Below are positions 60,970-63,040 of a stretch of DNA of 64,000 bases, in pieces. Both the position numbers and the translations under genes were made by a program. Numbering within the stretch: position 1 is the stretch's first letter; each line of letters opens with the position of its first letter. The DNA lies in the NCBI RefSeq assembly GCF_003611275.1, contig NZ_CP020694.1, positions 2,294,001-2,358,000 on the forward strand, read 5' to 3'. The notes beneath the pieces were generated by a model, which searched no databases, was not told the origin of the DNA, and worked only from the letters and a program-made list of their open reading frames with translations. Source of the stretch: Sulfitobacter sp. D7 (GTDB lineage Bacteria; Pseudomonadota; Alphaproteobacteria; Rhodobacterales; Rhodobacteraceae).

Positions 60970-62034
60970 TCAGGCCATACCGCCGTCGATCAGACCCCGC
61001 GCAAGACGCGCATAGGCGTCGGCCATCGGCCCTTCGCCTGCAGCGATCGGCGTGCCGATATCCCCCGCCAGACGGGTGTCGAGATCAATCGGCAGGCTGC
61101 CCAGCAGCGGCACCCCCATCTTGTCGGCCTCTGCCGCCACACCGCCATGGCCAAAGATCTTATGCTGAGAACCGCAATCGGGGCAGACGAATGTCGACAT
61201 ATTCTCGATCAGGCCCAGCACGGGGGTCTTCAGCGTCGCGAACATGTCCAGCGCCTTGCGCGCGTCGATCAGGGCCACATCCTGCGGTGTGCTGACCACG
61301 ATCGCGCCCGACAACTCGGACTTGGTGCAGAGCGTCAGCTGCACGTCACCCGTACCGGGCGGCAGATCGACAAGCAGCACGTCAAGCTCGCCCCATTCCA
61401 CCTGCCCCAGCATCTGCTGCAACGCGCCCATCAGCATCGGCCCGCGCCAGACCACGGCCTTGCCCTCTTCCAACATGAAACCAATCGACATCATGGTCAC
61501 GCCATGGGCCTGCAGCGGAATGATCGTTTTGCCGTCGGGGCTGGCAGGGCGTTTATTCACCCCCATCATGCGCGGCTGGCTGGGACCGTATATATCTGCG
61601 TCAAGCAGACCCACCTTGCGCCCCGCCCGCGCCAGCGCCACCGCGAGGTTGGAACTGACGGTTGATTTCCCGACCCCACCCTTGCCCGAGCCGATGGCAA
61701 GGATGCGCTTCACGCCACTGGGCTTCATCGGCCCCTCTTGCGGTTTGGGGTGCCCACCAATCTTGAGACTGGGCGCTTTCGGGGCGGGGCCATGGGCGGT
61801 CAGGGCAACCGATACATCACCTACCCCGGGCAAATCGCGCACCACCTGCTCTGCGGCGTCACGCAGGGGGGCCATCTGCCGAGCGACATCGGCGTTGGGC
61901 GCTTCGATGACGAATCGCACTTTATCGCCTTCGACGACCAGCGCGCGGACCAGATCATGGGACAACAGGCTTTTCCCGTCGGGCAGTTGCACCCGCGCCA
62001 GCGCCGCTTCGACTTCTGCTTTGGTCACAGACAT
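60970..62034 (-). CDS. mrp: Mrp/NBP35 family Fe-S carrier ATPase
   Basis: P-loop ATPase of 354 residues (also called ApbC) that carries iron-sulfur clusters. An N-terminal FSCA/DUF59 domain (about 1-85) is followed by the deviant Walker A IGSGKGGVGKSTVSSNLA near 115. The C-terminal cluster site CPDCGSQHKIFGHGG near 280 has the CxxC. The ATG at 62034 has GAGGAG 9 nt upstream. It starts next to the CCUCC RNA region, so its upstream DNA is shared with that locus. Confidence 0.94.
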   Translation of the reverse strand: MSVTKAEVEAALARVQLPDGKSLLSHDLVRALVVEGDKVRFVIEAPNADVARQMAPLRDAAEQVVRDLPGVGDVSVALTAHGPAPKAPSLKIGGHPKPQEGPMKPSGVKRILAIGSGKGGVGKSTVSSNLAVALARAGRKVGLLDADIYGPSQPRMMGVNKRPASPDGKTIIPLQAHGVTMMSIGFMLEEGKAVVWRGPMLMGALQQMLGQVEWGELDVLLVDLPPGTGDVQLTLCTKSELSGAIVVSTPQDVALIDARKALDMFATLKTPVLGLIENMSTFVCPDCGSQHKIFGHGGVAAEADKMGVPLLGSLPIDLDTRLAGDIGTPIAAGEGPMADAYARLARGLIDGGMA

Positions 62035-62161
62035 GCGCAAATTCTCCTCTATTACGGCTTCTGAAATGGCAGGTTCTGCGCCAAGCGCAAGGGGACGGCC
62101 ATTTTTGCATAGGGATGAGGCGGAATGCCCAAGGATTACGCAGGGGTACCATGTTTTCGCC

Positions 62162-62194
62162 GCATAGCAGCATTGCAAAAAGAAATATTGTGCA
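62162..62194 (+). promoter_or_regulatory. Upstream element, copy 1 (before RNA array 1)
   Basis: GCATAGCAGCATTG, 12 nt, then TTGTGCA. The same parts in the same spacing stand before the DUF1127 gene (62540-62572). It lies about 65 nt before the first hairpin and probably contains the promoter of array 1. Confidence 0.55.
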
Positions 62195-62258
62195 CTCGCA
62201 GCAATTAGCGCTAACTTAGGTTCATAGGCAGGGCCAAGCGCCCCGCTTTCGGAAAGAC

Positions 62259-62291
62259 CAGACACATTCATCCTCCTCCCGAATGTGTCTG
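62259..62291 (+). ncRNA. CCUCCUCCC-loop RNA 1 (CcsR/cuckoo type)
   Basis: An 11-bp perfect stem (CAGACACATTC / GAATGTGTCTG) with an 11-nt loop ATCCTCCTCCC. The loop is an anti-Shine-Dalgarno sequence. The fold and motif match the CcsR RNAs of Rhodobacter sphaeroides (cuckoo RNA family). Confidence 0.85.
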
Positions 62292-62303
62292 ATTTGACCA
62301 AGA

Positions 62304-62340
62304 CTTGGATGCATCCCTCCTCCTCCCGGATGCAGCTGAG
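62304..62340 (+). ncRNA. CCUCCUCCC-loop RNA 2
   Basis: A 6-bp core stem GCATCC / GGATGC around CTCCTCCTCCC, with a weaker outer stem down to 62304. The least stable member of array 1. Confidence 0.75.
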
Positions 62341-62351
62341 TTTGGAAAGAC

Positions 62352-62384
62352 CAGACGCCTCCATCCTCCTCCCGGATGTGTCTG
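62352..62384 (+). ncRNA. CCUCCUCCC-loop RNA 3
   Basis: An 11-bp stem with one G-U pair and one mismatch (CAGACGCCTCC against GGATGTGTCTG), loop ATCCTCCTCCC. It repeats the arms of RNA 1, showing duplication within the array. Confidence 0.82.
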
Positions 62385-62389
62385 TAATT

Positions 62390-62425
62390 GGCGGCGACAT
62401 CTACCTCCTCCCAGATGTCGTCGCC
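62390..62425 (+). ncRNA. CCUCCUCCC-loop RNA 4 with terminator-like tail
   Basis: A 13-bp stem with one G-U pair (62390-62402 with 62413-62425), loop ACCTCCTCCC, followed by CCCTTTT. The last hairpin of array 1 and probably its terminator. Confidence 0.85.
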
Positions 62426-62539
62426 CCCTTTTCCCACTCCACCCCCATATGACAGTTTTATGACGTTGCGCCGTTTCGCCGCAGGATCAAAACCGTTTTT
62501 AATCAATAAGTTGCGCAGATCCAAACCTATGCGATTTCT

Positions 62540-62572
62540 GCATAGCGGCATTGACTTTATGCCCGTTGTGCA
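62540..62572 (+). promoter_or_regulatory. Upstream element, copy 2 (before the DUF1127 gene)
   Basis: GCATAGCGGCATTG, 12 nt, then TTGTGCA: 13 of 14 and 7 of 7 positions match copy 1, with the same 26-nt offset. It contains a TTGACT -35-like hexamer. It ends 64 nt before the DUF1127 ATG. Confidence 0.6.
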
Positions 62573-62636
62573 AATGCAGAAAGAGCGTAAATAGCACGCA
62601 ACGAGATGATTAACCGATGAAAAAAGAGGCGCCGAA

Positions 62637-62849
62637 ATGGCTTACATGAACACAACAACCGCAAACACAACTTCCGTCTTCGCCCGTATCGGCGGCGCAT
62701 TCGAAGCACTGGCAACCCGCTACAAACAGCACCGTCTGTACCGTGAAACTTTCGACGGTCTGAGCGCGTTGAGCAACCGCGAACTGGCCGACCTTGGCCT
62801 GAGCCGTTCCGAACTGCGCCGCGTCGCATGGGAATCTTCCCGCGGCTAA
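62637..62849 (+). CDS. DUF1127 small basic protein
   Basis: A 70-residue protein. The DUF1127 helix pair covers about residues 36-66 (FDGLSALSNRELADLGLSRSEL). Such proteins stand beside CcsR RNAs in Rhodobacter sphaeroides, where the homologue (CcaF1) binds RNA and affects RNA maturation. Four CCUCC hairpins lie before it and four after it, the latter probably cotranscribed with it, so it may act on these RNAs. AGAGG lies about 8 nt before the ATG. Too short to show more. Confidence 0.88.
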   Translation: MAYMNTTTANTTSVFARIGGAFEALATRYKQHRLYRETFDGLSALSNRELADLGLSRSELRRVAWESSRG

Positions 62850-62863
62850 GCAGAGATAGAGAT

Positions 62864-62897
62864 CGGACGTCAGAACCCCTCCCTGTTCTGCCGTCTG
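62864..62897 (+). ncRNA. CCUCC-type hairpin RNA 5
   Basis: A 6-bp stem CAGAAC / GTTCTG, loop CCCTCCCT, extended after one mismatch by six more pairs (one G-U). First hairpin after the DUF1127 stop codon, 14 nt away. Confidence 0.75.
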
Positions 62898-62902
62898 AAA
62901 GT

Positions 62903-62947
62903 CGGGGTGCGCGTCACCTTCCTCCTCCCTGAATGAGGCGGACCCCG
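62903..62947 (+). ncRNA. CCUCCUCCC-loop RNA 6
   Basis: A CGGGGT / ACCCCG outer stem encloses a long apical part with CCTCCTCCC. The inner pairing is weaker. The motif and position put it in the second array. Confidence 0.68.
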
Positions 62948-62955
62948 CAAGGAGA

Positions 62956-62986
62956 CCCGAAGCCGACCCTCCCTCGACGCTTCGGG
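62956..62986 (+). ncRNA. CCUCC-type hairpin RNA 7
   Basis: An 8-bp perfect stem CCCGAAGC / GCTTCGGG with loop CGACCCTCCCTCGAC. The loop carries the shorter CCCTCCC. Confidence 0.72.
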
Positions 62987-62998
62987 CCGACATAGAAA

Positions 62999-63040
62999 CG
63001 GCGGCACCTTCCTCCCAAGGTGTCGTCGTTTTTGTTTTTA
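62999..63040 (+). ncRNA. CCUCC-type hairpin RNA 8 and terminator
   Basis: A 12-bp stem with two G-U pairs (62999-63010 with 63017-63028) and loop CCTCCC, directly followed by TTTTTGTTTTT. It closes array 2 as a Rho-independent terminator. Confidence 0.88.

Follow-up and report, generated by a model that had tools for sequence, protein, structure and literature searches.

Two adjacent CCUCC hairpin arrays, each behind an LsrB/VtlR-like box, at the DUF1127 locus of Sulfitobacter

The window analysed here, 64,000 nt of Sulfitobacter sp. D7 (whole genome 3.96 Mb in 6 contigs), contains a plus-strand locus of four RNA hairpins, a 70-aa DUF1127 gene and four further hairpins, all within ~0.9 kb. 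Both hairpin groups (arrays 1 and 2) are preceded by a common 14-mer of the form GCATRGCRGCATTG, which resembles the published Rhizobiales box of the LysR-type regulator VtlR/LsrB. We consider it probable that the locus comprises two adjacent transcription units of one regulon, each activated by an LsrB/VtlR-type protein, and that unit 1 arose by duplication and loss of a DUF1127 gene. Unit 1 (62162–~62430) would be an operon of four anti-Shine-Dalgarno (aSD) hairpins without a protein gene, and unit 2 (62540–~63045) a CcaF1/CcsR-type operon consisting of the DUF1127 gene and four hairpins in its 3´ untranslated region. The shared LsrB/VtlR-type box and the proposed functional split between the two units are the main new suggestions of this work; an earlier note on this DNA had not recorded the box, an indication of a LysR-type regulator. 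Publications are cited here for their excerpted text, and the features of the locus are as follows.

62162..62175, plus: LsrB/VtlR-like box 1, GCATAGCAGCATTG, preceding array 1; one of the two exact GCATAGCRGCATTG sites in the genome.
62188..62203, plus: second half-site of the array 1 promoter, TTGTGCA-N3-GCAGCA, overlapping the likely -35 (at most one mismatch in 50/50 genus array 1 promoters).
62211-62216, plus: guessed -10 of array 1, CTAACT.
62259..62291, plus: array 1 hairpin 1, loop AUCCUCCUCCC (fold).
62310..62334, plus: array 1 hairpin 2, loop including CUCCUCCUCCC (fold).
62352..62384, plus: array 1 hairpin 3, loop AUCCUCCUCCC (fold and stem conservation).
62390..62425, plus: array 1 hairpin 4, loop ACCUCCUCCC, 13-bp stem, likely terminator (fold and stem conservation).
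62540..62553, plus: LsrB/VtlR-like box 2, GCATAGCGGCATTG, preceding the DUF1127 gene; the other exact GCATAGCRGCATTG site.
62566..62581, plus: second half-site of the DUF1127 promoter, TTGTGCAAATGCAGAA, overlapping the likely -35 (sequence).
62588-62593, plus: guessed -10 of the DUF1127 promoter, TAAATA.
62637..62849, plus: DUF1127 gene, 70 aa, CcaF1-like (PF06568, 43.8 bits against a cut-off of 23.3, E 2.2e-11).
62864..62897, plus: array 2 hairpin 1, short loop CCCUCCCU (fold and stem conservation).
62903..62947, plus: array 2 hairpin 2, the sole downstream loop with the full CCUCCUCCC (fold).
62956..62986, plus: array 2 hairpin 3, loop region including ACCCUCCCUC (fold).
62996..63031, plus: array 2 hairpin 4, loop region including UUCCUCCC; terminator with UUUUUGUUUUU tail (fold and stem conservation).
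60970-62037, minus: Mrp-type NTPase gene (mrp), flanking the locus before array 1.
63095 onward, minus: UvrD-type helicase gene, flanking the locus after array 2 (Pfam).

The eight plus-strand stem-loops that the earlier note had placed on either side of the gene were all reproduced by folding at those sites, and CCUCC or CUCCC is present in 8/8 loops, in agreement with the C-rich loop around CCTCC described for each. Its count of five full CCUCCUCCC loops is likewise borne out by CCTCCTCCC at 62272, 62319, 62365, 62404 and 62921 on the plus strand and none on the minus strand of the window. The U-rich tail said to close each group is strong after array 2 (TTTTTGTTTTT) and weak in this genome after array 1 (CCCCCTTTTCCC). 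A DUF1127 gene followed by at least two CUCC hairpins (fold, PF06568) makes this a locus of the CcsR/DUF1127 kind, as had been proposed. Among named relatives, the best matches to the DUF1127 protein come from Sulfitobacter (100% in a metagenome-assembled genome (MAG), 99% in S. dubius).

The exact sequence GCATAGCRGCATTG occurs at two sites only in the 3.96-Mb genome, both at the present locus. Four more sites have one mismatch: one precedes a second DUF1127-plus-hairpins locus (C1:2619447, minus) and three lie inside listed open frames. At up to two mismatches the genome holds 90 sites, compared with 36 for the reversed control, which amounts to ~0.3% per 255-nt one-strand stretch; one of these lies ahead of a two-hairpin array without a protein gene on contig C4 (95787). 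Clustered CCTCCTCCC and ar14 matches revealed four CCUCC array units in the genome, and all four have an upstream box at up to two mismatches. On the other strand, the published VtlR motif CAATGCAGCCATGCA (PMC12595884, excerpt) agrees with box 2 at 13/15 positions and with box 1 at 12/15, and the box is also close to the LsrB box TGCA-N6-GCAT given for the NfeR1 promoter in the excerpt of PMC10746234. The box of the C4 unit, GCATTGCTGCATTG, is an exact match to GCAT-N3-TG-N3-T.

Alignment of promoters from the family Rhodobacteraceae yields the rough consensus TATGCA-N5-TGCATRGCAGCATTG-N11-ATTGTGCA-N3-GCAGCAT. The second half-site, TTGTGCA-N3-GCAGCA, lies 12-13 nt past the box with at most one mismatch in 50/50 array 1 promoters of the genus, and at up to two mismatches in 52/54 boxed gene promoters of the family, compared with 0.1-0.3% at up to three mismatches in a shuffled control. 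Among the boxed DUF1127 promoters of the genus it is kept (up to three mismatches) in 21/44 and lost in 23/44. Counted from a guessed start near 62223, box 1 occupies -61 to -48, which fits the position of the box in the S. meliloti abcR1 promoter (-61 to -49 in the excerpt of PMC8844928). Helical phasing of the spacing (2, 12 and 22 nt within the genome) was considered and rejected as a general rule; the spacing is 12-13 nt in nearly all loci, and the odd two are the paralogous locus and the C4 unit. A Cereibacter-like genome, presumably C. sphaeroides (CcsR1 at 106.2 bits, 71-aa DUF1127 protein), carries the same box and half-site exactly, with mrp adjoining and no upstream array.

The promoter region could also be read as that of RpoHI/RpoHII stress operons like R. 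sphaeroides ccaF1-CcsR, in which case the box would be part of the core promoter or the site of another regulator. A CCTAT-like element seen by eye past the second half-site in many other-genus loci would fit the S. meliloti RpoH1 consensus CTTGAA-N16-CCTATAT (PMC8844928, excerpt). The box itself, 12-13 nt before the -35-like half-site, falls outside a core promoter, and its agreement with the excerpted VtlR motif (PMC12595884) points elsewhere. Control by RpoH in place of a LysR protein is thus an unlikely though serious contender, and it is compatible with the two-unit model if an activator and an alternative sigma factor act together.

The genome encodes, by best match, a putative LsrB/VtlR orthologue. 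According to the excerpt of PMC7486931, trxB and vtlR are well conserved as neighbours in Alphaproteobacteria, and this adjacency provides the link to the named LsrB; the sequence comparison itself was made with trxB-linked LysR proteins. The best 30 trxB neighbourhoods of the 185 class genomes with a match contained 16 LysR proteins, all of one type, and 16/16 had the same best match among the 25 LysR loci of the genome, C1:1682758-1683666. The identity is 39-51% for 15 of them and 61% for one 123-aa fragment, whereas the next matches listed are at 25-35%. Proteins of this type match at E <= 1e-70 in 288/295 family genomes (258/260 good ones). A LysR gene beside trxB in Sulfitobacter sp. D7 was rejected, as the trxB neighbour looks Lrp/AsnC-type by eye. 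No LsrB or VtlR model is among the 25 of 56 NCBIfam matches listed for the LysR protein, and no box at up to two mismatches was found around its gene. In the model that we favour, each unit has its own promoter, and the LysR protein, probably that of C1:1682758-1683666, would bind GCATRGCRGCATTG together with the second half-site at -35 and activate transcription.

To survey the genus, 58 Sulfitobacter genomes (sp. D7 among them) were searched; a DUF1127 match at E <= 1e-8 was obtained in 56, and all 63 resulting rows were examined. The first 50 rows, from 50 genomes, all adjoin mrp and all have an upstream array, of two (34), three (7) or four (9) hairpins. A box at up to two mismatches precedes the upstream array in 50/50 and lies within 250 nt of the gene in 44/50, and a downstream run of at least two hairpins follows in 49/50. 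Among the last 13 rows, five (five further genomes) lie at mrp with the same double layout and box, and eight lie elsewhere and have no upstream array; for genome G005 only an mrp-unlinked DUF1127 locus, on a 3-kb contig, was shown. The second array that the earlier note had described upstream of the gene is therefore real, and the double layout is present at the mrp-linked DUF1127 locus in 55/55 Sulfitobacter genomes, including sp. D7. Named loci, 80 kept of 235 found and overlapping in species with the other loci and not independent, were surveyed too: the double layout occurs in all 14 titled Sulfitobacter and in two titled Roseobacter (MAGs), and the remaining 64 have no upstream array, a downstream array in 63 and a near box in 60. 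The marine laboratory strain S. dubius DSM 16472 (L170) shares the double layout.

The array 1 hairpins might instead be the 5´ leader of the DUF1127 mRNA, released by processing from one long transcript that runs from before array 1 through array 2. The location of all parts on one strand within ~0.9 kb would suit such a transcript, as would the weak terminator tail of array 1 in Sulfitobacter sp. D7. Between array 1 and the gene, however, lies a second box with a promoter signature; a T run of at least five follows the last upstream hairpin in 35/50 genus loci; and in other genera the box stands near the gene in 94/102 loci and 250-560 nt upstream in only 3/102. A single long transcript is accordingly quite improbable. 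Separate initiation of array 1, as the earlier note had supposed, is well supported by features of the DNA, because a promoter signature of its own precedes the array and, in most species, a terminator of its own follows it.

A DUF1127 match was obtained in 222 of 295 family genomes, of which 220 represent genera other than Sulfitobacter. We examined 102 of the 220, one locus each, mainly from the higher-scoring listed rows (60 + 15 + 27; one locus, L105, offers only 432 nt of upstream sequence). A downstream array of at least two hairpins is present in 98/102 (57 + 14 + 27), and the box, at up to two mismatches, lies within 250 nt of the gene in 94 (54 + 14 + 26) and at 250-560 nt in three (2 + 1 + 0). 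An upstream array of at least two hairpins is found in only 3/102. The survey threshold (score 14) is passed by 22/82 background CCTCC sites of the window, and the other-genus loci therefore serve as a real control. Since mrp or uvrD lies alongside in 77/87 other-genus loci tested for synteny, the scarcity of upstream arrays does not come from comparing different loci. Whether the double layout recurs in other Roseobacter genomes, a question raised by the earlier note, can thus be answered: it does throughout Sulfitobacter and almost nowhere else.

The three exceptions (L115, L128 and L146, from three other genera) lie behind a second DUF1127 gene: in each, the frame that ends 5-15 nt before the upstream hairpins encodes a DUF1127 protein (PF06568, 3/3). 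At L115 the second gene, too, is preceded by an exact box, at a distance of 648 nt. These tandem DUF1127-array units are likely natural intermediates toward the Sulfitobacter state. The most likely origin of unit 1 would then be a tandem duplication of a DUF1127-array unit, after which the upstream DUF1127 gene was lost; unit 1 would have retained the ancestral promoter and full loops, and the promoter and loops of the DUF1127 unit would have diverged. A wider proposal, to which we give an even chance, is that activation of aSD hairpin RNAs by an LsrB/VtlR-type LysR protein is ancestral across Alphaproteobacteria, R. sphaeroides CcsR included, and that Sulfitobacter split the ancestral operon into a unit of small RNAs (sRNAs) alone, in which the old control and the full loops are preserved, and a DUF1127 unit that drifts to other control and shorter loops.

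The hairpins stand out from the background of the window. A stem score of at least 20 is reached at 7/8 array sites and at 5/82 other CCTCC sites; the eighth array site was scored from an early CCTCC inside its own stem. The bare 9-mer CCTCCTCCC was rejected as a marker of array RNAs (29 in the genome, 22 for the reversed control), and rarity lies only in its clustering. A first count of stems was dropped as circular, the stems having been picked per sequence. The stem test used instead takes the structure from the window alone and applies it to MAFFT alignments of the 50 genus loci, with 300 shuffles. Core stems are paired in 303/380 cells for the second-last upstream hairpin (38 distinct rows; both-side changes at 10/10 pairs), 304/322 for the last upstream hairpin (26 rows; 6/13 pairs), 375/492 for the first downstream hairpin (42 rows; 12/12 pairs) and 384/397 for the last downstream hairpin (33 rows; 10/13 pairs). 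In all four, pairing exceeds the maximum of 300 shuffles, which supports the structures without proving them, as kinship alone can exceed shuffles. For the last upstream hairpin, 94.4% of the core stem is paired, compared with 88.8% (maximum 91.0%) after shuffling; over its full span (MAFFT/fold) the value is 79.1%, compared with a shuffled mean of 75.6% and a maximum of 77.3%, a weak excess because window-specific outer pairs are included.

Full CTCCTCC loops make up 114/125 upstream and 53/180 downstream hairpins in the genus, compared with 358/377 downstream hairpins in other genera, which indicates that the full-loop array of Sulfitobacter is the upstream one. By distance bin, the full loop is found in 7/44 first, 38/42 second, 4/47 third and 4/48 fourth downstream hairpins. 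The downstream loops are shortened yet not random, since identical short forms recur. A T run of at least five follows the last hairpin in 35/50 upstream and 17/50 downstream arrays, and non-last hairpins in only 5/75 and 0/131, respectively; a consensus terminator scan returned one irrelevant minus-strand terminator. A terminator-like last hairpin in each array, together with the wide variation of stem sequences, would be expected if the hairpins were structural elements (serial terminators, mRNA stabilisers or a DNA-level repeat) and not sRNAs. This explanation is very unlikely: CUCC loop motifs are kept while stems change with pairing intact, which indicates a function of the loops; a 1-kb search with the CcsR1 and ar14 models gives matches at E ~1e-6; and related RNAs are proven sRNAs (PMC10746234, PMC8844928, excerpts).

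The earlier note had put forward a covariance-model search as a check, with the lack of any hit counting as a refutation, and its outcome is mixed. At gathering scores no Rfam family matched in the window. A permissive 1-kb search placed CcsR1 (RF02791) at 62347-62429 with 35.2 bits (E 1.1e-6; gathering 65.3) and the whole ar14 model (RF02344) on array 1 with 40.8 bits (E 6.7e-6; gathering 58.8); ar14 on array 2 scored 31.6 bits. The 6C, Scr3202, Pxr and miRNA matches of the permissive list were set aside as chance C-rich hairpins. Searched genome-wide, ar14 matches the two arrays at 50.1 and 24.9 bits, and such sub-cut-off matches (E <= 10) are also present in 9/14 control genomes. Genome-wide CcsR1 matches at E <= 1e-6 occur in 202/295 family genomes, ten of them over gathering. 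The claim that eight anti-Shine-Dalgarno RNAs may be made is an overcount, as the CcsR1 model covers two hairpins per RNA, in 83 positions, so that the eight hairpins amount to some four RNAs of CcsR size. Only five of the loops are full.

The double layout represents a variant, found throughout the genus, of a locus type already known. As in the CcaF1-CcsR1-4 operon of Rhodobacter (Cereibacter) sphaeroides (RF02791, CIN1), hairpins with CCUCCUCCC-type loops come after a DUF1127 gene; Sulfitobacter differs in its upstream array, which the Cereibacter-like locus lacks, in its mostly shortened downstream loops and in an RF02791 match below gathering. The DUF1127 RNA-binding protein of R. sphaeroides reportedly matures CcsR, and the cuckoo RNA family is said to have been described by Reinkensmeier and Giegerich in 2015. 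That family, CCUCC hairpins linked to DUF1127 genes (as cited in the excerpt of PMC10253847), resembles the present arrays. Array 1 is similar to ar14/NfeR1 of Rhizobiales (RF02344) in being a protein-free hairpin run with an aSD motif per loop, variable stems and an LsrB-type box upstream, and it differs in having four hairpins instead of three, in matching below gathering and in adjoining a DUF1127 operon. The LsrB/VtlR regulon (AbcR1, AbcR2, NfeR1, VrsA and DUF1127 genes) has aSD sRNAs and DUF1127 genes as its targets, as would hold at the Sulfitobacter locus, and shares a trxB-linked-type LysR protein and a similar box (PMC7486931, PMC12595884, PMC10746234, PMC8844928, excerpts). In Sulfitobacter, by contrast, the LysR gene is not beside trxB, the box in most loci shows A/G in place of T at one position, and the protein contains a single cysteine. 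Among the papers listed by a literature search that did not cover the founding cuckoo RNA, CcsR and CcaF1 papers, none dealt with such arrays in Sulfitobacter, and PMC12501420 was the only excerpted text naming both CcsR/CcaF1 and LsrB/VtlR (LsrB once, in the reference list).

If the wider proposal is correct, CcsR of Rhodobacter and NfeR1/AbcR of rhizobia, which have been studied apart, would have a common activator and logic, in which a LysR protein switches on RNAs that mimic the ribosomal anti-Shine-Dalgarno sequence. Sulfitobacter would be a natural experiment with an sRNA array uncoupled from the DUF1127 protein, so that the need of the sRNAs for a linked DUF1127 protein becomes testable in one locus. 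The box likewise yields testable regulon members in a marine family of wide distribution.

In the two-unit model, RNase E would release the hairpins from the precursors, as for CcsR, and the CUCCUCCC loops of the hairpins would pair with GGAG-rich ribosome-binding sites and block the translation of transport and catabolic mRNAs. In S. meliloti, NfeR1 and AbcR repress transport genes via anti-SD motifs, CUCCUCCC in AbcR1/2 (PMC8844928, excerpt). The pattern GGGAGGAG-N3-10-ATG occurs at 22 sites in the genome, compared with two for the reversed pattern, which is a poor control for purine-rich Shine-Dalgarno (SD) sites, so that these are only candidate targets. Four of the 22 are the antisense of the arrays, two precede open reading frames (ORFs) of 56 and 11 aa, and 16 precede longer ORFs. 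Six of these 16 encode solute-binding proteins (four DctP, one of them just over the cut-off, one Peripla_BP_4 and one NMT1-like), a raw share; they belong to the target class given for S. meliloti NfeR1/AbcR in the excerpt of PMC8844928. The others include acyl-CoA, malic enzyme, ornithine cyclodeaminase, reductase and other genes. One DctP candidate (C1:705351) has a one-mismatch box inside its coding region on the opposite strand, which is probably due to chance.

Several points weigh against the two-unit model. With regard to the box, a lone two-mismatch site proves little, because the genome holds 90; most loci have A/G where GCAT-N3-TG-N3-T (PMC7486931, excerpt) has the first T of TG; the DUF1127 promoter has no near box in 6/50 genus loci; and a consensus sigma-70 scan found no promoter. 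With regard to the regulator, the excerpt of PMC11975290 describes LsrB as unique to Rhizobiales, a claim that the LysR distribution found here appears to bear against. The LysR protein of C1:1682758-1683666 has one cysteine, which makes the multi-cysteine redox switch of Rhizobiales LsrB unlikely as its sensor, and its signal is probably other than that of Agrobacterium LsrB. As for the RNAs, neither array has an Rfam match above gathering, the genome-wide CcsR1 search at E <= 1e-6 found none in Sulfitobacter sp. D7 or the other sampled Sulfitobacter, the T tail of array 1 is weak in Sulfitobacter sp. D7, and the solute-binding share among candidate targets is a raw one.

Further hairpin arrays were observed in this genome and across the family. 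The genome-wide ar14 search returned eight matches at E <= 10, four of which are the array units; L051 was rejected as a single terminator hairpin behind a coding gene, and L053, L054 and L055 were rejected for having neither a box nor a run of CCUCC hairpins. The C4 unit (C4:95787-95937, on a 105-kb contig) has a box of its own, no protein gene and two CCUCC hairpins, the last of which is terminator-like (GCCTTTTTATTT). The paralogous locus (C1:2618740-2619460, minus) consists of the box, the second DUF1127 gene, a small ORF with no Pfam match and three CCUCC hairpins. At L162, L396, L147, L152 and other family loci, the downstream arrays reach as many as 12 hairpins within 500 nt, and the repeated loop and score patterns at L147 and L152 suggest unit duplication as the mode of growth.

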